Shown here: positions 54,258 to 64,000 of the stretch, piece by piece
How the letters are laid out: each line of letters opens with the position of its first letter
Numbering within the stretch: position 1 is the first letter of the stretch
From: Rhodothermales bacterium
GTDB lineage: Bacteria > Bacteroidota > Rhodothermia > Rhodothermales > UBA10348
Assembly (NCBI GenBank): GCA_024711125.1
Contig: JANJTM010000054.1
Location: 22,501 to 86,500 of the forward strand
Length of the DNA stretch: 64,000 bases
Reading direction: 5' to 3'
Notes under the pieces: model-generated
What the model saw: the letters and a program-made list of their open reading frames with translations, nothing else
Database searches by the model: none
What the model was told of the DNA's origin: nothing
Position numbers and translations under genes: made by a program

Positions 54258-55016
54258 ATGAGCACCGACTCCGACCGCCTGGACGTCCTGGTCTTCGCCG
54301 CACATCCGGACGATGCCGAGTTGAACGTGGGCGGAACGATCGCGACGCTCGTCGCCCAGGGCTACCGCGTCGGCGTCGCTGACTGCACCCGCGGCGAACT
54401 GGGCTCGCGGGGCACGGTCGAAGGGCGTGCGGCGGAGGCTGCCGAAGCGGCCCGGGTGCTCGGCCTGTACGCCCGGTACAACCTCGGGCTGCCCGACGGA
54501 GCGATACCCGACACCCCGGAAGCGAGGCTCGCGGTGATCCGCATCGTGCGGCGCACCCGCCCCGACATCGCCCTCGTCCCTCCCGTCGCCTGCCGCCATC
54601 CCGACCACGAAGCGGCGTCGCGGCTCGTGACGGCCGCGTTGTACCAGTCGGGCCTGGTCCGCATCGAGGCCGGGGATGGATTGGCCCCCTGGCGCCCGCA
54701 CCACGTCCTGCACTACATGCAGACGCTCGACTTCGAACCGACCCTCGTCGTCGACGTGACGGCGGCATGGGAGGTCCGCATGCAGGCGCTGCGGGCTTAC
54801 CGCAGCCAGTTCCACGATCCCACGTACTCGGCGGCCGACGGCGAACCCGAGACCTACATCTCGAATCCGGCGTTTCTCGAGTCGGTCGAGGCAAGGGCCC
54901 GTTCGTACGGTCACCGCATCGGCGTGCGGTACGGCGAGCCCTTCCTGTATCGCCATGGACCTTTCGGGGTCACCGACCTGGTGGGCACCTTCTCCACGCG
55001 GCGCGAGCACCGCTGA
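54258..55016 (+). CDS. bshB1: Bacillithiol deacetylase BshB1 (PIG-L family)
   Basis: The 252-residue zinc-dependent deacetylase removes acetyl from GlcNAc-malate in bacillithiol synthesis. The first metal motif is AAHPDDAEL (His16, Asp18, Asp19), with the third ligand in CRHPDHEAA (about 114-120). GELGSRGT and SNPAFLESVEARARSYG fit the BshB1 subgroup better than other LmbE proteins. The start lies one base after the leuS stop. bshC is upstream at 49145. The hairpin at 55035-55070 marks the end of the transcript. bshA must be elsewhere. Confidence 0.88.
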   Translation: MSTDSDRLDVLVFAAHPDDAELNVGGTIATLVAQGYRVGVADCTRGELGSRGTVEGRAAEAAEAARVLGLYARYNLGLPDGAIPDTPEARLAVIRIVRRTRPDIALVPPVACRHPDHEAASRLVTAALYQSGLVRIEAGDGLAPWRPHHVLHYMQTLDFEPTLVVDVTAAWEVRMQALRAYRSQFHDPTYSAADGEPETYISNPAFLESVEARARSYGHRIGVRYGEPFLYRHGPFGVTDLVGTFSTRREHR

Positions 55017-55137: not shown

Positions 55138-57021
55138 TCACCAGGCGAAACGCACCCGGCGTGACCCCGGCGGCAGGCTGCGGATGACCACGTGATGCGA
55201 CCCGGCGGTATCGGTGGTCTCGACGTCCACGCTGAGACCGTCCAGGTCTTCGGCCTCCAGACCGTCCTTGCCGTGCACGAGCAGGGTGATGCCTTCGACG
55301 GGCTCGTCGAGGTCATTCACGAGCTCGATGGTCACTCCCGAGCGATCCTGTTCGGTCACCTGCACCGAGACGTGCGACCGGCGTGACCACCACTGGGCGA
55401 TGTCGGCGAGGGTGGCAATCCAGGTACCCGAGTTTCGGGCCGTGAGCAGCGTCTCTTCGAGCCGGCGGAAGGGCCCCGATCCCGAGCGGTGCATTTCGGG
55501 GTAGAACGGGATGACGAAGAGCCCGCCCGCCCGGTCGATTTCCGAGAACCGCGTCGGAAAGTCGACCACGCCCGGGTCGAGCGGCATGGCCATGACGGGC
55601 GCCGCCATGGGATCCTCGGCGGCGGGTGCCGCGGGTAGGGTTCGCTGGGTAAGGAACGGCAGGTCCGACGGTTGGGTCGATGCACGCATCGCGCGGTAGT
55701 CCACGTCGTCCCACCAGCGCACCACGCCGGGTGAGAGGCTCGATGCCGAGGGCAGCAGGAGGTAGGCGAGGCCTTCCTCCAGGATCGCACGCACGGTATT
55801 GCCGTCGTAGAACCCTCCGGGCGGATACACGCCGAGCCCGCCGGAAGCGCCTATCTCGTTGCGAGCGGCGGCGAGACGCTGCCCCTGCACGTCGCTCGGC
55901 ATTCCGGAAATGACGTCATCCGAAGGGCCTGCGAGTGCAATTTCGCCCTCGGCGTGCAACTCGGCCACGAAATTCGGAAACGCCACGGCTTCCCTGCTCG
56001 TCAGGAAATACGTCGCGGGCGTGGACGTCCGGGACAGCAGCCCACGGAAATCGGTCCATCCGCCCAGGTATCCCAGCGGTTCGAAGCCGACCGAGGGCAA
56101 CGCGGCGACCGCAAGGGCCGACCTGCGCCCTTCCGGCCAGGCCGCGATCGAGATGCCGGGGGTGCGACTTACCCACGCCATGGCATTCACCATAAGGCGC
56201 TGGTAGTTCACCTGGTGGTCACGCTCTCGCGAAACGTCCTGGGGTTGGAACCGGGTCCAGAAGACCCGTCCCTTTCCGCGTTCGTTCGCAAGGATCAGCG
56301 TGGCTCCGGCGAGCTTGTCGTCATCGCGACCCGAATACGACCGTATCGTGCCCAGCGAGCGGCCGGAGACCGGGCGCGCGCCCGTCAGGGGCCGTTGGAC
56401 CGAGATGTTGAGGCGAAAACCGGGCTCGATACCGGCCGACACCGCATGGCGTGCGTCGATTTCGTGCAGGAGTCCGAACGGCTGCTCCGGCAGCCGGGTA
56501 ACCGGCTCGGCGCCCAGCAGGTCCACGAACAGCCCGTCGGTTACCGCGCGGCCGCGCTCGTCGAGCGCCCCGAGCCGGCCCGAAACGATCAGTCCGCCGC
56601 CCTTTTCGGTAAACCGAAGCAGGGTTCGGCGCTGGCGGTCGCCCAGCGCGTCCGCTCCCGGAACGATGAGCAGCCGGGTGTGCTTCGAAACGCCCCGTCC
56701 GAGTTCGGCCGCGTCCACCGTCTCGAAAGGTACCTGGAGGCCCAGGAGGAATACCTCCCAGTTGTAGACCGCGTCCCGGCCCAGGGTGGCGGCCGCGGCA
56801 TCCTGCGTCTGCCATGTGGCCGGGCGGACGAGCGTGATCGCCGGCTTTTCGCCGTCGCGGAACCCCTCGAACGCGTGGGCCACCATGCTGCCGGGCTGGA
56901 GGAGGTGCATGCCCGGTTCGAGCGGCTGCGCCCCTGCCGCCGCGGCCGACGCCAGGCACAGCGCCGCCACGAAGGCGGTGTGTCGCACGGAAAGCTGCAG
57001 GCGGTGCGTCATGGTGTTCAT
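55138..57021 (-). CDS. Exported GATase-like/degenerate polysaccharide-deacetylase protein (second copy)
   Basis: The 627-residue exported protein has a signal peptide (AALCLASAAAAGAQ). A GATase1-like beta/alpha region follows (about 80-170, RLLIVPGADALGDRQRRTLL and GGGLIVSGRLG), then a NodB-like fold (about 300-425) and a C-terminal beta domain. In the NodB part the expected T-F-D-D is AALPS (306-310), the H-x3-H motif is GEIALAG, yet PPGGFYD (400-406) is kept. It therefore looks like an inactive deacetylase fold. It lies 4 bases after a homologous protein (57026-59320), the last gene of a polysaccharide operon. It may bind, guide or modify polymer without metal catalysis; unproven. Confidence 0.72.
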   Translation of the reverse strand: MNTMTHRLQLSVRHTAFVAALCLASAAAAGAQPLEPGMHLLQPGSMVAHAFEGFRDGEKPAITLVRPATWQTQDAAAATLGRDAVYNWEVFLLGLQVPFETVDAAELGRGVSKHTRLLIVPGADALGDRQRRTLLRFTEKGGGLIVSGRLGALDERGRAVTDGLFVDLLGAEPVTRLPEQPFGLLHEIDARHAVSAGIEPGFRLNISVQRPLTGARPVSGRSLGTIRSYSGRDDDKLAGATLILANERGKGRVFWTRFQPQDVSRERDHQVNYQRLMVNAMAWVSRTPGISIAAWPEGRRSALAVAALPSVGFEPLGYLGGWTDFRGLLSRTSTPATYFLTSREAVAFPNFVAELHAEGEIALAGPSDDVISGMPSDVQGQRLAAARNEIGASGGLGVYPPGGFYDGNTVRAILEEGLAYLLLPSASSLSPGVVRWWDDVDYRAMRASTQPSDLPFLTQRTLPAAPAAEDPMAAPVMAMPLDPGVVDFPTRFSEIDRAGGLFVIPFYPEMHRSGSGPFRRLEETLLTARNSGTWIATLADIAQWWSRRSHVSVQVTEQDRSGVTIELVNDLDEPVEGITLLVHGKDGLEAEDLDGLSVDVETTDTAGSHHVVIRSLPPGSRRVRFAW

Positions 57022-57025
57022 CGGA

Positions 57026-59320
57026 TCAATTCGACGACCGGAAGGGGGTCCGGTCGGGACCGAGCAGGTCGATGTGGAAGATGCGGTACTGCTGCGGCTT
57101 CAACTCGCGGATCGGCAGCACCAGCACGGTTCCGTTCTCCTTCAGTTCGTAGGCCGGGATGTCGTTGTCGTCGGGTACCGGCTTGAAGATGTTGATCAGT
57201 TCGGGGCGGATGTTTACCGCGGTGACCTCCCGCCCGAGCGCGATCGACACGGTGGCGCCGTGCGCCACGTCTCCGTTGTCGTTCGATACCCGAACGAAGA
57301 TGCGCGACGGCCCACGCTGCTCCACGTCGGTGTTCAGGGCCTGGTGAAGCCTCCACCAGTGGGCGATGGAGTCGCCCGATGCGGTCCAGAACCCCTGCGA
57401 ACGTACCTGGCGCGCAACGGTGCGGATGGCCTCGAGCGAGCCCGCGTGCTCCAGCTCCGAGGACGAGTAGACGAGGTGGAAGAGCGACCCGTCATACCGC
57501 GCACGATCGATCCCTTCGGAGAGCGTGGGCGATACGAGCCCGCCGAGGTCGGTTCCGTTCACCGAACCGCGCGTGGTAACCCCGATGCGGACCAGCGTTT
57601 CGAACGGGAAGCCCATGATCTTCGGCGCGGTCCGGCGGCCGATCGAGTCGGGTATGAAGTACGTGTATCCGGAGGCCTGCACGAGTCCGCCCATCGTGTG
57701 GTCGCTGTACATGCCCCGCTTGGAGGAGCGGTACCCGCGCACGGGACCCTCCACCAGGCGCTCCAGCGCCTCCCGCTGCCGTTTCAGGCGCGCGGCCTGG
57801 CTGCTGACGATGCCGTCGCTGCGGTATTGCAGGGTATCGTAGACTCCCACGTCCCCATTGTCGTGCAGCCGGCGCATCAGCGCGCCGTACGGAGCGGCAT
57901 CTTCGGGGCGCACCATGTACGTGCCGGGGACCCGTTCCTGGTTGAGGACGTCGACCACCTTGGAGAACTGCTGCACGTCCCGGTCGCCGAACCCGGTGAC
58001 CATCGCCGCCGCGTCGTACGGGTGCGGCCAGTCATGCACCCAGATGACCGGCTTTCTGCGCAGATAGTTCATCACGTTGGCGAAGTACTGCGCGAGTACC
58101 ACCCAGTCCTCCCGGTCCTGCGGGCCGAGACCCATGGCATTCCGCTGGAAGCCCATGTATACGAAGCGGCCCTTCCCGTACGTGCCGTACACGACACCGC
58201 TCGTATTGTCGAAGTTGTCGACGCCCACGGCCTCGTCCGTCGCGAAATCGAACCAGTAGCCCGCCGAATGGGCGCGGTCCGGCTCGACGACCCGGACCTT
58301 CACGCCGGGATTGTAGACCTGGATCTTGACGCGGTATCCGCCGACGATACCCGCGGTCAGCGGCGTATTCGAGCGGAAGGTGAACCGGCGGATGCCCGCG
58401 CTCGTGCGCGGGTAGGGGACCTGCGCCGTGGGGTCGCCGCCGATCCACGTGTAGTAGGTGACGATCACGGCGTCCTGCTCCCGCTCGCTTCCGTCGAGGT
58501 CACGCAGCATCGCGCGGATGGGCTGCGCCTGGGCGAAGTCGCGCGCCGGGGGCTGGGCCCCGAGCGAATCGAACCATTCGTACGTCTCCAGCGGCGCAAA
58601 GCCCGAGGCGCGGGCCTCGTCGATTCGCTGTCTGCGCGTGACCTCGTATTCGTTGCTCGACCCCAGGAACGCGGGGTCCCGCTCGAGCGAAGCGAGATAC
58701 GACGGTTGATAGAGACCCGCGGGCGTCACGCCCGGAAAGGTGTCGGTGTATACCCGGTAATTACCCACCCCGCGCTCCACGAACCCCTGGAACTCCACGC
58801 CGAAGAGGTCCTCGACGAAGCTCCAACCGCGCCAGGAACCGTCTTCGCGGTATACGCCCGGAGTCCAGGTCGCAAAGACGCTTCCGCCCTGCTCCATGAA
58901 CTCCTTGATGCGCTGGATCTGCAGGTCGCTCATCGCCCGTACCGAGGGCAGCACGAGCACGTCGAAGTCGTTGATGGCCCCGCTCTCGACATCCAGGTCC
59001 GTGATGTCGCGGAACGGGATGCGGCGGTCCTTCTCGATGAGGAATTCCCTCCACGAGAGGAGCGTCTGGTCGATCCACGACGTACTCGTATCCGAGACGT
59101 TCAACGCCCGGTGGGCACGCCGCGTGTAGTCGCTGTTGAGCAGGGCAACCGTCGGCCGACCTGCGTCGACGCGGGTCCTCGGGTCTGCGTCACGGATGGA
59201 GAACGCGCCCAGCGCCGACTCGATCAGCAGGATATAGACGAGGATGGCCGCGGCCAGGGCCGTCACGCCGAGCGTGACGAACCAGAGCGTGTTGACCCGT
59301 TCGAGTCGAGGCAGTGCCAT
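57026..59320 (-). CDS. Membrane-anchored GATase-like/degenerate polysaccharide-deacetylase protein (first copy)
   Basis: The 764-residue protein has one N-terminal transmembrane helix (about 12-33). A GATase1-like region follows (about 55-160, FDVLVLPSVRAMSDLQIQRI then EQGGSVFATWTPG), an insert of beta structure, and a NodB-like domain (about 430-700). At the first NodB motif it has GFGDRD (443-448) in place of T-F-D-D-G. At the second it has GDVGVYDTLQ in place of H-x3-H, and GYRSSKRGMYSD where R-x-P-P-G is normal. The metal ligands thus appear lost. It probably projects into the periplasm from the inner membrane. Sequence and layout resemble the 55138-57021 protein, indicating ancient duplication. 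Role is inferred from operon context. Confidence 0.72.
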   Translation of the reverse strand: MALPRLERVNTLWFVTLGVTALAAAILVYILLIESALGAFSIRDADPRTRVDAGRPTVALLNSDYTRRAHRALNVSDTSTSWIDQTLLSWREFLIEKDRRIPFRDITDLDVESGAINDFDVLVLPSVRAMSDLQIQRIKEFMEQGGSVFATWTPGVYREDGSWRGWSFVEDLFGVEFQGFVERGVGNYRVYTDTFPGVTPAGLYQPSYLASLERDPAFLGSSNEYEVTRRQRIDEARASGFAPLETYEWFDSLGAQPPARDFAQAQPIRAMLRDLDGSEREQDAVIVTYYTWIGGDPTAQVPYPRTSAGIRRFTFRSNTPLTAGIVGGYRVKIQVYNPGVKVRVVEPDRAHSAGYWFDFATDEAVGVDNFDNTSGVVYGTYGKGRFVYMGFQRNAMGLGPQDREDWVVLAQYFANVMNYLRRKPVIWVHDWPHPYDAAAMVTGFGDRDVQQFSKVVDVLNQERVPGTYMVRPEDAAPYGALMRRLHDNGDVGVYDTLQYRSDGIVSSQAARLKRQREALERLVEGPVRGYRSSKRGMYSDHTMGGLVQASGYTYFIPDSIGRRTAPKIMGFPFETLVRIGVTTRGSVNGTDLGGLVSPTLSEGIDRARYDGSLFHLVYSSSELEHAGSLEAIRTVARQVRSQGFWTASGDSIAHWWRLHQALNTDVEQRGPSRIFVRVSNDNGDVAHGATVSIALGREVTAVNIRPELINIFKPVPDDNDIPAYELKENGTVLVLPIRELKPQQYRIFHIDLLGPDRTPFRSSN

Positions 59321-59368
59321 GGCCGGAGTGCGTCTGGGATGAACGGCAGGGGGCGGCTGCGGCCGGGC

Positions 59369-59779
59369 TCAGAGCCAGGCGTAGCCTTCGTCCTGCGCCT
59401 GCTGCTGCTGCGCGGGCTGCCGGGACGGCTCGCGGCTCGCCTGGGGCTCTTCCTGGGGATTCACCGGGACGAAACCCTCGTCGGTGTATTCCCAGAAGAG
59501 CGAGCTCTGCGGCCGCTGCGAGGGTGCCGCCGGCGCCTGGAGCGACGGCTGCTGCCGGCTGGGGGCGTACATCGACGCTTCGGCCGGGGCCTGCAGCGAC
59601 ATCGCCGTCTGCGGCGCGACGAGCACGTGCGGCTCGGGCTGTGCGTACATGGCCGGACGACTCGACTCGCGGGCGCGGCGCTCGCGGATCTTGTACAGGA
59701 TATACGCTGCCACCGCCAGGATGAAGGTGGCAATCGTACCGACCAGGATGATCGTGGAGAGGATCGGGACTAGTTCCAT
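59369..59779 (-). CDS. Small membrane protein with Gln/Pro-rich tail
   Basis: The 136-residue protein has one N-terminal transmembrane helix (about 6-30, STIILVGTIATFILAVAAYI). A basic stop-transfer KIRERRAR and a long Pro/Gln/Ala-rich cytoplasmic tail follow, with a central conserved-looking SLFWEYTDEGFVPV. No enzyme motif is seen. It lies between the glycosyltransferase (153-base gap upstream) and the first pseudo-deacetylase gene (48 bases downstream). Its position recalls PgaD, a small membrane partner of the PgaC synthase, but it has one helix and no sequence resemblance that I can see. Coding status is likely given frame-consistent codon use; the role is unknown. Confidence 0.6.
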   Translation of the reverse strand: MELVPILSTIILVGTIATFILAVAAYILYKIRERRARESSRPAMYAQPEPHVLVAPQTAMSLQAPAEASMYAPSRQQPSLQAPAAPSQRPQSSLFWEYTDEGFVPVNPQEEPQASREPSRQPAQQQQAQDEGYAWL

Positions 59780-59932
59780 GACGATTGCGTGCGGGGACGC
59801 TTCGGAGGTTTCGGTTCGCGGTCAGGTATCACAAGGTCCGTGCCCAATGGCCCGTGAGGGCTTTTTCCCCCGGAAACCGGGGTCAGGACGTCTCAATCGG
59901 GCTATCGCAGGTTCATTCTGAGACGGCGGCGC
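59780..59932 (-). other. Operon-internal intergenic region with three hairpins
   Basis: This gap lies between the glycosyltransferase stop and the small membrane-protein start on the minus strand. It holds CGTCTCA/TGAGACG (59889-59895 with 59919-59925), a CCCCGG-AAA-CCGGGG stem (59868-59882) and a GGCCC/GGGC stem followed by TTTTT on the plus strand (59849-59866). It could be an mRNA-processing or attenuation site between the synthase and downstream genes. No known riboswitch pattern was recognised, including both c-di-GMP classes. Confidence 0.45.
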
Positions 59933-61429
59933 TCATCGGGCGCCCGAGCCGATGCGCTCGAGCTTGCCCCACGTCATGCCGAATCCGAGGAATTCCTCCA
60001 CCGTGGCGAGCGTCTTGCAGACGTCCACGATGAGGATGAAGAAGAGCCGGTAGAAGAGCGAGTAGAAGACCAGGCGGGCCTCCTCCTTCTCCACGGCGAC
60101 GCAGTAGAGCGCCGCGATCAGGTCCAGGATGGTCAGGCTGAGCCACCAGTACACCAGGTAGTAGCTCATGTTGAAGACCAGCGCGATGAAGATGAAGTAC
60201 GCGTTCGCGAAGATGTTCATCACCGGCCAGATCAGCGACTCGAACGCCATCGACCACATCACGATGGTCCCGCCGAAGTTGATCGTGGGATTCAGGAAGA
60301 GATCCCGGTGCTTGCGCACGGCCTGGATGATGCCGCGCGTCCAGCGGTACCGCTGTTTCAGCAGCGACACGATCTTGTCCGGCGCCTCGGTATAGGACTT
60401 GGCATCGGGTTCGTACTCGACGCGCCATCCGGCGCGGATGATCTTCAGCGTGATGTCGGCATCCTCGGCGAACGTATCCGAGCTGTACCAGCCCGCGTCG
60501 AGGATCGCCTGCTTTCGGAAGAGGCCCAACGGACCCGGGATGATGTTGACCAGCTTGACGATCGACTGGGCCGATCGGGCCATGTTGAGGCCCTCGACGT
60601 ACTCCAGCGCCTGCAGCGTCGTCCATACGTTGCCGCGGTTCAGCACCTTCACGTTGCCCGCGATGGCGCCCAGCCGGGGGTCGACGAAGTGCCGGATCGT
60701 CTTGCGCAGCGTATCGGGCGATAGCTGCGAGTCTCCGTCCACGTTGAGCACGAAATCGTACCGCGAAACCTGGATGCCGGCGTTCAGCGCGGTGGCCTTT
60801 CCGCCGTTGGGCTTCTCGACCAACCGTACCTCGACGCGGCCGCCGTGGTAGAATCCGACCAGTGTGCGGGCCACCTCGCGGGTGTCGTCGGTCGATCCGT
60901 CATCGACGATCACGATCTCGTATTTCGGGTAGTCCATCTCGACCAGCGAGCTGATCGTGCCCTGGAGCAGTTTGCCCTCGTTGTAGGCCGGGACGATGAT
61001 CGAGATCGGCGGCATGAACGTGCCGTCGTGCCCTTCGTCCACCGTGTGTTTGGCCGTGTTCAGGTACGCCATGTTCATCAGCGACAGGTACCGGAACAAC
61101 AGGATCACGAGGAAGAGCACGAGCGCGACGATCGACGAGTACACGATGAGGCCGCTCCACGAGAGCGTGCTCGTCCATCCGGTCAGGCGGAACAGGTAGC
61201 CCCCGGGGTCCTCCAGGAAGACATAGACGATGGCGAACAGCAGCACCGAGAGCGTGCCGTAGACGATCATCCGGCGCAGGTAGACCCGGTCGTCCTCGCG
61301 GGGACCGACCATCTCCTTCTCGGGACGGTGCAGGGGCTGAAATGCGACACGGCGCACGGGCACCGAGGGCCGCATCCGGTCCGGAGCATCGGCCTCGGGG
61401 CCGACCAGTTCCTGTTTCGTCGTTTCCAT
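59933..61429 (-). CDS. Membrane processive glycosyltransferase, family 2
   Basis: The 498-residue inner-membrane synthase has two N-terminal helices (about 55-72 and 95-113), a cytosolic GT2 domain and three or four C-terminal helices. The processive-synthase motifs are present: VDDGST (175-180), the D-x-D NVDGDS (229-234), EDAD (322-325) and Q-x-x-R-W (QRYRW, 359-363). These resemble PgaC/IcaA N-acetylglucosamine, hyaluronan and cellulose synthases. There is no PilZ domain, so c-di-GMP control is not evident in the protein. Its upstream neighbour (36 bases) is an outer-membrane TPR exporter. The product sugar cannot be read from sequence. Confidence 0.9.
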   Translation of the reverse strand: METTKQELVGPEADAPDRMRPSVPVRRVAFQPLHRPEKEMVGPREDDRVYLRRMIVYGTLSVLLFAIVYVFLEDPGGYLFRLTGWTSTLSWSGLIVYSSIVALVLFLVILLFRYLSLMNMAYLNTAKHTVDEGHDGTFMPPISIIVPAYNEGKLLQGTISSLVEMDYPKYEIVIVDDGSTDDTREVARTLVGFYHGGRVEVRLVEKPNGGKATALNAGIQVSRYDFVLNVDGDSQLSPDTLRKTIRHFVDPRLGAIAGNVKVLNRGNVWTTLQALEYVEGLNMARSAQSIVKLVNIIPGPLGLFRKQAILDAGWYSSDTFAEDADITLKIIRAGWRVEYEPDAKSYTEAPDKIVSLLKQRYRWTRGIIQAVRKHRDLFLNPTINFGGTIVMWSMAFESLIWPVMNIFANAYFIFIALVFNMSYYLVYWWLSLTILDLIAALYCVAVEKEEARLVFYSLFYRLFFILIVDVCKTLATVEEFLGFGMTWGKLERIGSGAR

Positions 61430-61465
61430 GGTGCTGGGGAATCGGTTCCCGCGGTATCGGCCGCC

Positions 61466-64000
61466 CTAGAGCGTCCAATAGAGCGTGGCCGTGAGAGAAA
61501 ACGTGTTGTAGTCGTCGACGAAGCTCGAGGCGCCGCTTCCGAGCGAACGGCTCGACTGTCCGACGGCACCGACCACGTTGAGCGAGAAGTGGTTCGAGAG
61601 GCGCTTGATGAGGTCCATCTCGATGCGTCGCGAGATGAAGCCGTTGGACTCTGCGATGATGCCCATGGCGCCGCGCAGGCGCAGGTACCAGTTGTAGGGC
61701 ACGTTCTTCTCGTACTCGAGGAAGATGTCCCACGACTGGTAGTCGCGCGGCGACCAGTACAGGTCGGTCGTCGTGCGCCAGGCGATCTTGTGCCACATCA
61801 CGCCGAACCAGGTGTGCGGAACGATCTTGTAGGAGCCCTCGAGACGCGTCGACACGCCGATGTTGGCGTTCGACGTGGTCGCGATCGTGCCGAAGTTGTC
61901 GCGGACCAGGTTCATGCCGAGGAACCCGCCGAGTCGAAGGGTGGAGTCGGCCATCGCGTTGGGCAGGAAGCCCTGGATGTCGAACTGCGTGTTGCGAAGG
62001 TTGTACTCGCCGCCGGCCGGAGACCAGAGATCGATCGACCCTTCGCCGGCGCGGAATCCGAGCGATCCCCGGTAGACACCGGGGTCCTGGCGCCAGTAGC
62101 GGATCCCACCGAAGCCGACGGTCCTTCCGCCTTCGTAGTCGTACAGACCGCCCTCGACCGAAATCCGGCTCGAGAACGAGGCGTGGTTCAGCTCGGCGAA
62201 TTTCTCGGCCAGGTCCACGTATCCGGCGGCGAAGACCTGGTTGACGCGACCGCGCGCCGTCGGCGAATTCGGAATCAGCTGCCGCGTCCCGGTCATGAAG
62301 TGCGAGTTCACGCCCGCCATGAGCACCGACCCCCAGCCGATGGGGAGCGTGACGTGCGCCTGGGCGCCCTGCATCCAGCGGTCGTAGTTCGTGCCGCCGC
62401 CGTGACCGATCACGGCCTCGACGGTCGGCACGATGATGCCGACGAAATCGTAGCCGCGGCCCTCGGCCGTCTGGCCGAGGCTGGCACGCATACGGAGATC
62501 CAGCGTCACCGACCGCTCGCCGACGGTCGTCGCCGATCCGGAGAGCCGCTGCGCATCGGCGTAGATCTCCTCGGCCTGCGCGTAAAGACCCAGTTCACGG
62601 TACGCGTCAGCCTGCAGGAAGCGCGCCTCGTAGTCGTACGGGTTGCGGGCGACGAGATCCTGCAGGGTCACCAGCGCTCCGGAGAAGTCCTTGCGGTAGA
62701 TCTGGTTACGGGCGATTTCCTTCGCCGTGTCGTAGTCCCAGGACTGTTCCTGCAGGGCGAGAAGCACCGAAAGGGCCCCCACGAAGTCGCCCTTGGCGGT
62801 GTGGACCTGCGCCAGTTCGCGCATCTCGGCGCGGTTCCGACGTCCCTGCGTCTCGAAGTAGGCTTCGTACGCGCGGATCGCTTCGTCATACCGGCGGGCC
62901 GTCGCCAGCGTCCGGGCCTGGTTCAACTGTTCGAACCGCAGCGCGTCGGTTCGGCGGATCCGTGCACGCTCCACCAATTGGGCCAGCGCGTCGATCCTGC
63001 CGGCGTACCGGGTATCGGCGAACGAATCGGCTCGGCGCAGCAGGGCCTCGGCGCCGTCGGCGTCCCCTTGGGCAAGGCGGAAGTCGGCGAGGTCGAGCAG
63101 AAGTTGGGGATCCCGAAGATCCTGGACGGCGACCAACCGGGACGCAAATCGTTCGGCCCGCTCGTCCATCTGGCCGCCCGCGATCGCGGCCATCACGTAC
63201 AGCCGCTGGAAATCGGGGTTGTCCGGCTGACGATCCACGAGCATCGCGGCCTGCCGGGCCGCCTCCTCCGTATAGCCGTTGACCCGAAGCGCGTCGGCGT
63301 ACCGGGCGCGCTGGGTGTCGTTGCCTGGCTCGAGCCGCAGCAGCGCCGCATAGACGGCGAATGCGTCGTCCGACCGCCCGAGAACGAGGTAGGATTCGGC
63401 CAGCTCACGCAGGGCTTCGCCGTCGTCGGGGCGGGACGAGAGGGAACGCTCGAGTTCGGCGATCCGGGACGTCGCCATGTCCCGCCGGCGGCCGGACAGC
63501 ACGGCCAACCGCGCCTGGTATCCTTCGTCGGCCGGATTGGCATGCACGGGGTCGGTCAGGACTTCCAGCGCCTCGGCCACGCGACCGGCGTCGGCCAGCG
63601 CGTCGACGAGAGCCAACCGCGTCGACATGTCGCGCGGATCGAAGCGGAGGCGGTACGTGAACCGGTCGATCGGGAAGATCGGCGATACCCCGTTGGCCGC
63701 GACGAGTCCGTTGTCGGCCGCCACGAACTGGGCGAGCCAGCGCTGCGTATTTCCGTGGCGCTCCACGAGCTGGAGCAGCTGGTCGTACGCTTCCTGGTGA
63801 CGCCCGTACCGGTTCAGTTCCTCCACCAGGCGGAACCGCTTCTCGTCGTCGTTCGGGTTCGCCCTCAGTTCGCGCAGCAGGCGGTCGACCACGAACTCGG
63901 TAGCGGGACGCTGCTGGCGGGGCGAAGGCGCCGACGCGAGACCGCGCCGAGCCGTTTCGTAGCGTGTCGTCCACTCGCTCGACGACCGGTGGCGGGGCGC
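61466..64000 (-). CDS. TPR-repeat outer-membrane exporter, 5' end outside window
   Basis: The frame is open to the right edge (first visible residues RHRSSSEWTTRYE), so the true start lies beyond 64000; the GTG at 63892 is internal. Over 840 residues are visible. The N-terminal about 500 are TPR-like repeats (EAYDQLLQLVERHG, LAESYLVLGRSDDAFAVYAA). The last about 310 form a beta-barrel with alternating strands and a terminal aromatic (SFVDDYNTFSLTATLYWTL). This TPR-plus-barrel design matches PgaA, BcsC and PelB, which export synthase-dependent polysaccharides. It precedes the GT2 synthase by 36 bases, so the two probably work as secretion and synthesis parts. Polymer identity is unknown. Confidence 0.82.
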   Translation of the reverse strand, partial: APRHRSSSEWTTRYETARRGLASAPSPRQQRPATEFVVDRLLRELRANPNDDEKRFRLVEELNRYGRHQEAYDQLLQLVERHGNTQRWLAQFVAADNGLVAANGVSPIFPIDRFTYRLRFDPRDMSTRLALVDALADAGRVAEALEVLTDPVHANPADEGYQARLAVLSGRRRDMATSRIAELERSLSSRPDDGEALRELAESYLVLGRSDDAFAVYAALLRLEPGNDTQRARYADALRVNGYTEEAARQAAMLVDRQPDNPDFQRLYVMAAIAGGQMDERAERFASRLVAVQDLRDPQLLLDLADFRLAQGDADGAEALLRRADSFADTRYAGRIDALAQLVERARIRRTDALRFEQLNQARTLATARRYDEAIRAYEAYFETQGRRNRAEMRELAQVHTAKGDFVGALSVLLALQEQSWDYDTAKEIARNQIYRKDFSGALVTLQDLVARNPYDYEARFLQADAYRELGLYAQAEEIYADAQRLSGSATTVGERSVTLDLRMRASLGQTAEGRGYDFVGIIVPTVEAVIGHGGGTNYDRWMQGAQAHVTLPIGWGSVLMAGVNSHFMTGTRQLIPNSPTARGRVNQVFAAGYVDLAEKFAELNHASFSSRISVEGGLYDYEGGRTVGFGGIRYWRQDPGVYRGSLGFRAGEGSIDLWSPAGGEYNLRNTQFDIQGFLPNAMADSTLRLGGFLGMNLVRDNFGTIATTSNANIGVSTRLEGSYKIVPHTWFGVMWHKIAWRTTTDLYWSPRDYQSWDIFLEYEKNVPYNWYLRLRGAMGIIAESNGFISRRIEMDLIKRLSNHFSLNVVGAVGQSSRSLGSGASSFVDDYNTFSLTATLYWTL

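Follow-up and report, generated by a model that had tools for sequence, protein, structure and literature searches.

In the 64,000-nucleotide stretch of a Rhodothermales genome analyzed here (the window, G000:C32:22501-86500; source genome of 3.79 Mb in 81 contigs), positions 55138 to 64000 carry five genes that we read, with a probability of about 0.6, as an operon for the synthesis and export of a synthase-dependent polysaccharide. Two of its products, here called A and B, have the fold of NodB-type deacetylases and lack the metal-binding residues of these enzymes, and we propose that they bind the polymer and conduct it from synthase to exporter. The gene set is conserved and apparently undescribed as a polysaccharide synthesis and export system; no description of it was found in the open-access literature searched.

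The five open reading frames, all on the minus strand, lie where a preliminary description had placed them and are transcribed in the order exporter, GT2 protein, small protein of 136 residues, B, and A, with intergenic gaps of 36, 153, 48, and 4 bp. That description had named a TPR exporter, a GT2 synthase with all four motifs, a one-helix protein, and two related proteins, and the frames, Pfam, and hhalign bear it out. The GT2 domain is clear (PF00535 at 7.7e-33), its motifs read VDDGSTDD, VDGDS, AEDADIT, and QRYRW, and hydrophobic segments flank them, a pattern pointing to a processive GT2-type synthase of the inner membrane. The protein is nearest to the PgaC and NodC models yet below their cut-offs: the closest NCBIfam model, PgaC_IcaA, matched at 3e-58 with 197.7 bits against a cut-off of 422.3, and the score against CelA (75.2 bits, cut-off 699.1) is far below.

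The exporter contains TPRs (PF14559 at 2e-19), and its start, which lies on another contig, C61, carries a signal peptide. It had been described as a TPR/barrel protein, and the TPR half of this stands in Pfam; the C-terminal barrel is a prediction from strand-like sequence and exporter architecture. The small protein matched no family in Pfam or NCBIfam. It consists of a near-invariant membrane helix, MELVPILSTIILVGT.ATFILAVAAYILYKIRER, joined by a variable Gln-rich linker to a conserved acidic and aromatic tail, FWEYTDEGFVPV...AWL.

Proteins A and B: fold and catalytic residues

A and B are paralogues, homologous over 545 columns in a profile comparison (hhalign, 100%, 1.3e-45). The claim that each joins a GATase-like region to a NodB fold held in the profiles, in Pfam, and in Foldseek, the GATase-like domain being closest to the GH42 trimerization or ThuA-like fold. 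The NodB fold is supported by profile matches to solved deacetylases (4m1b at 1.1e-6 and 2j13 at 1.4e-6 for A, 3rxz at 2.7e-5 for B), by PF01522 in 10 of 12 A homologues, and by AlphaFold2 models with a mean predicted local distance difference test score of 74.6 for B and 83.0 for A. With these models, Foldseek matched B to 3rxz (6.4e-9), ArnD (5.9e-8), GH42 (2.0e-7), PelA 9cgy (2.3e-7), and the CE4 pseudoenzyme BA3943, and A to GH42 and GH164 domains (~1e-9), NDST1 8ccy (1.2e-8 over 565 columns), ArnD, and 3rxz. A begins with a signal peptide, judged by eye, and B with a transmembrane helix. The ThuA-like region of B in Rhodothermales holds an insert of ~130 to 170 residues (58205 to 58720 in the window, residues 201 to 372) that is absent from homologues in a second class of the phylum, hereafter class 2.

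Catalytic motifs were counted in 62 A and B proteins from the two classes. The NodB metal triad (the Asp of MT1 and the HxxxH of MT2) is absent from 61 of them, A and B of the window included, as the preliminary description had proposed for its two homologues, and no A protein (of 15) or order-level B protein (of 16) combines Asp with HxxxH. The sole exception is a second copy in genome G181 (L075:9087-10904, minus strand), which has both the MT1 Asp and the MT2 HxxxH (SCDVE and HGDDH) as well as RPP and is probably, by its motifs, an active family member. Class-2 B proteins do not keep MT1 and MT2 and do keep the MT3 proline and the MT5 histidine (each in 25 of 26); in Rhodothermales B, the MT5 histidine is also lost. 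Near MT1, B proteins repeatedly carry acidic residues, and so do A and class-2 B at one column of MT2. This motif pattern suggests that A and B descend from an active deacetylase.

Strong purifying selection acts on the NodB regions, which hence are not decaying: the ratio of nonsynonymous to synonymous substitution rates (dN/dS) was 0.03 to 0.12 in three pairs, rough values with synonymous changes near saturation in several comparisons. The genome also holds canonical CE4-type genes with no linkage to the operon, on contigs C22 (L001:1117-2061; TFDDG) and C35 (L002:1165-1863; SWDDG).

Table 1. Genes and protein domains of the operon (positions in the window)
Feature	Position	Strand	Basis
Putative outer-membrane exporter, TPR repeats and predicted C-terminal beta-barrel	61466..64000, continues past window	-	Pfam TPR; barrel predicted; N-terminus on contig C61
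Putative GT2 processive glycan synthase	59933..61429	-	PF00535; DDG, DxD, ED, QxxRW
Small single-helix membrane protein	59369..59779	-	No family; kept in nearly all complete loci
Protein B, membrane-anchored, ThuA-like + NodB-like + beta, without NodB metal triad	57026..59320	-	Profiles, AlphaFold2, Foldseek, motif counts
B, N-terminal transmembrane helix, residues 11-36	59213..59290	-	Sequence, AlphaFold2 helix 11-36
B, ThuA/GATase/GH42-trimerization-like region with lineage-specific insert, residues 56-423	58052..59155	-	8ibr beta-galactosidase domain 3.6e-8
B, NodB-like domain, residues 424-660, MT1 and MT2 residues absent	57341..58051	-	3rxz profile 2.7e-5, Foldseek 6.4e-9
B, C-terminal beta domain, residues 661-764	57029..57340	-	AlphaFold2 strands
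Protein A, secreted, ThuA-like + NodB-like + beta, without NodB metal triad	55138..57021	-	Profiles, AlphaFold2, Foldseek, motif counts
A, ThuA-like region, residues 56-284	56170..56856	-	Foldseek to GH42/GH164 ThuA-like domains ~1e-9
A, NodB-like domain, residues 285-548, MT3-like YPPGG kept, MT1 and MT2 absent	55378..56169	-	4m1b 1.1e-6, 2j13 1.4e-6
A, C-terminal beta domain, residues 549-627	55141..55377	-	AlphaFold2 strands

Gene order in relatives and the upstream KaiC-like gene

In an order-level sample of 41 genomes (the window genome and 40 relatives), B was matched in 19, and all five genes stand in order in 11 relatives and in the window genome, the other loci being cut by contig ends or without A or a detected exporter. 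Among 395 genomes of the phylum, 89 gave some match, with the strong ones in the order itself and in a few families of class 2. The 26 class-2 loci show the order (GH9)-KaiC-exporter-(GDSL)-GT2-small-B-(second copy)-lipoprotein-PAS histidine kinase, optional genes in brackets; 25 of them have the full set of KaiC, exporter, GT2, small protein, and B, and the same order recurs in Rhodothermales. A GH9 glucanase gene directly precedes KaiC in 23 of these loci, a GDSL hydrolase is found in 10, and a second A/B-like copy is found in 5. The GH9 linkage hints at a beta-1,4-linked glucan in class 2; as a universal component GH9 was rejected, most operon-bearing Rhodothermales genomes being without it. 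Downstream of the class-2 operon (L068-L075, L093-L110) regularly come an immunoglobulin-like/fn3 lipoprotein gene and a gene for a large PAS histidine kinase-response regulator. A comparison of class-2 B with plasmid records gave one weak partial match, in a protein of the alpha-amylase family.

Only Rhodothermales regularly carry the A partner; elsewhere B stands by itself or next to a degraded second copy, and in one genome the second copy has a metal site that looks intact. The paired pseudo-deacetylases of the preliminary description are thus mainly a trait of Rhodothermales. In a tree, the A proteins of Rhodothermales form one group (100/99) and their B proteins are nearest to class-2 B, the position of the second copies being unsure on account of long branches. 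None of the three results named beforehand as counting against the preliminary description (intact metal sites in the two proteins, an unrelated fold, or absence of the gene order from neighboring genomes) was obtained.

The start of the operon does lie outside the window, as had been claimed. A KaiC-like gene precedes the exporter in relatives, and a search of the window genome located it at G000:C61:62233-63480 (L077:10234-11481), followed by the start of the exporter. Our contig ends 536 bases beyond the window (window position 64536), and its end and that of C61 encode a near-identical stretch (ADALYDGRR(V/F)REA..GAYGEYLE); the two contigs therefore join there, and the operon begins with the KaiC-like gene, the exporter, and GT2. 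On the other side, plus-strand genes for the bacillithiol deacetylase BshB1 (54258-55016; TIGR04001 at 5.3e-83) and a leucyl-tRNA-synthetase-like protein converge on the operon and do not belong to it, and this neighborhood is kept in most relatives. Divergently upstream of the KaiC-like gene, Rhodothermales relatives carry a lipoprotein with Big_7 immunoglobulin-like domains and a PQQ-type beta-propeller (L026:3137-5005, minus strand, and neighbors).

The KaiC-like domain is clear (PF06745 at 2e-16; solved KaiC at 1.8e-28), and the Walker A lysine is an arginine in all nine aligned sequences. The protein may bind a nucleotide as a switch and have no ATPase activity. Matches of the C-terminal tails are weak (GGDEF_2 in seven of eight, best 1.5e-4; PelD_GGDEF in two of eight, best 0.028), and an RxxD stands at the place of an I-site in seven of the eight aligned tails and also in the copy of the window genome.

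Proposed working and alternative explanations

The GT2 protein would polymerize the glycan and push the chain through the inner membrane, with the small one-helix protein as a putative synthase subunit. B, anchored beside the synthase by its N-terminal helix, could take the emerging chain in the cleft of its NodB domain and its ThuA-like domain, the latter of a carbohydrate-binding-module type, and A, free in the periplasm, would carry the path on as far as the TPR domain in the exporter, whose predicted barrel would pass the chain. The path from B to A to the exporter is drawn by analogy with PelADA, which is anchored beside the inner-membrane Pel transporter, and with PelA and PelB, where the ThuA-like and NodB domains sit on the TPRs. 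Because the metal triad is missing, we infer that the part played by A and B is to bind the chain and lead it onward, not to deacetylate it. The KaiC-like protein with its GGDEF-like tail would probably switch synthesis on a nucleotide, possibly cyclic di-GMP (c-di-GMP).

Several observations weigh against this working. The profile of the exporter C terminus matched no solved barrel. Within B, conservation is lowest in the NodB part, with a mean pairwise identity of 43% compared to 54 to 56% for the ThuA-like and beta parts, and the ThuA-like part may therefore be the functional core. The intact-looking metal site of the G181 copy makes activity in part of the family possible, and the TFDDG CE4 gene could act on the polymer in trans. 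At the regulatory end, the tail scores under the curated cut-offs for GGDEF homology, and a profile built from it alone matched no solved GGDEF and gave chance matches only, for which reason a degenerate GGDEF is no more than a suggestion.

Among the alternatives, the one that survives best, though we think it unlikely, is that A, B, or both are still active esterases or hydrolases with a relocated or different active site, in the manner of the motif shifts in CE18, CE21, and CE26. The persistence of the MT3 proline and MT5 histidine in class-2 B would fit such a site, as would the recurring acidic residues, and motif positions can shift in PelA and PelADA (PMC12022489, PMC13254593); against it stand the lack of an Asp and HxxxH combination throughout the A and order-level B proteins and the loss of the MT5 histidine as well from Rhodothermales B.

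It is improbable, too, that the GT2 protein makes no secreted exopolysaccharide and that the locus decorates an envelope component such as a lipid- or protein-linked glycan, with the TPR protein as a scaffold. The exporter barrel is a prediction and the GT2 protein also matches nonprocessive enzymes well, but QxxRW with flanking helices is typical of processive synthases, PgaC/IcaA is the nearest curated family, and a TPR exporter is present together with, in class 2, a GH9 glucanase comparable to the periplasmic glucanase of cellulose systems.

We give little credence to the idea that A and B act as decoys or partners in regulating an active deacetylase or esterase, be it the CE4 protein encoded on C22, the class-2 GDSL protein, or the second copy. 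The genome does hold intact CE4-type genes, and of the 26 class-2 operons, 10 encode a GDSL hydrolase and one encodes a second copy that looks intact; yet no canonical CE4 gene is linked to the operon, and most operons are missing any intact esterase gene. Finally, decay of A and B as pseudogenes of former deacetylases, which the loss of catalytic residues alone might suggest, was rejected on the purifying selection (dN/dS of 0.02 to 0.12), with full-length frames in all complete loci and B conserved across two classes, and its probability is negligible.

The proposal that A and B are conduits can be widened to exopolysaccharide machines spread through the Bacteroidota, with dead deacetylase-fold proteins as obligate polymer guides under a catalytically degenerate KaiC-like/GGDEF-like switch; we hold this wider form tentatively and consider it somewhat doubtful. 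Deacetylation is important if the biofilm polymers of Pga and Pel are to work. A conserved system whose deacetylase folds are selected for but apparently dead would allow a direct test of a structural role in periplasmic chain transport, which in PelA or PgaB is difficult to disentangle from catalysis, and would add a probably new polymer and a new candidate type of switch (KaiC-like plus GGDEF-like).

Comparison with known systems

NodB folds that have lost their catalytic residues are known from the CE4 pseudoenzymes BA3943 and BA0150 (4m1b), both among the matches of A and B; these two are not known to have a fixed place in a polysaccharide synthesis operon. Cellulose systems (Bcs, Ccs) share a GT2 synthase, a TPR exporter, and an endoglucanase, which is periplasmic there and has its counterpart in the GH9 protein of class-2 loci; they differ in that our operon is without a PilZ domain and BcsB and its GT2 protein falls far short of the CelA model. 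The preliminary description had likened the operon to Pga. This stands for the synthase and for the exporter with its TPRs and predicted barrel, PgaABCD (the poly-N-acetylglucosamine system) having a TPR-barrel exporter, a PgaC-related GT2 synthase, and a small membrane partner; for A and B, PelA and PelADA are the better match. PgaB is active as a deacetylase, carries a glycosidase at its C terminus, and has another NodB topology (NodB2, PMC10967932), whereas A and B have a ThuA-like N-terminal domain and no metal site, and the operon holds no PgaB-like gene.

A tandem of ThuA-like and NodB esterase domains has been described in PelA (PMC12022489), Agd3 (PMC7229062), NDST1 (PMC10864358), and PelADA (PMC13254593). 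The first domain of Agd3 and PelADA is a carbohydrate-binding module. Agd3 (CBM87-CE18) and NDST1, the latter matched by A over 565 columns, share the ThuA/Rossmann-like and NodB tandem with our proteins but are active eukaryotic enzymes outside synthase operons. Pseudomonas PelA (CE21) has the order ThuA-like domain, NodB deacetylase, and beta-rich domain (PMC12022489), and B matches its structure 9cgy; its partner PelB is an exporter with TPRs and a barrel, the architecture predicted here, and models of PelA with PelB place the ThuA-like and NodB domains in contact with the TPRs of the exporter (PMC12022489). PelA differs in an additional N-terminal hydrolase and an active metal site, and the Pel operon differs in composition; no gene like PelF (GT4) or PelG is present in our operon.

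The membrane-anchored CBM114-CE26 protein PelADA from the Gram-positive pel operon of Bacillus cereus (PMC13254593) shares with B both the ThuA-like, NodB, beta order and the N-terminal transmembrane helix, and it too belongs to a polysaccharide operon, which there includes the c-di-GMP-binding regulator PelD. PelADA is active, with D262/D263, HxxxH, and H488, whereas B is without the Asp and HxxxH. Pel relies on PelF and PelG, our operon on a GT2 synthase and a TPR exporter. In its domain order, B therefore resembles Bacillus PelADA and Pseudomonas PelA, but it is inactive by motif and is paired with a GT2 synthase in place of PelF/PelG.
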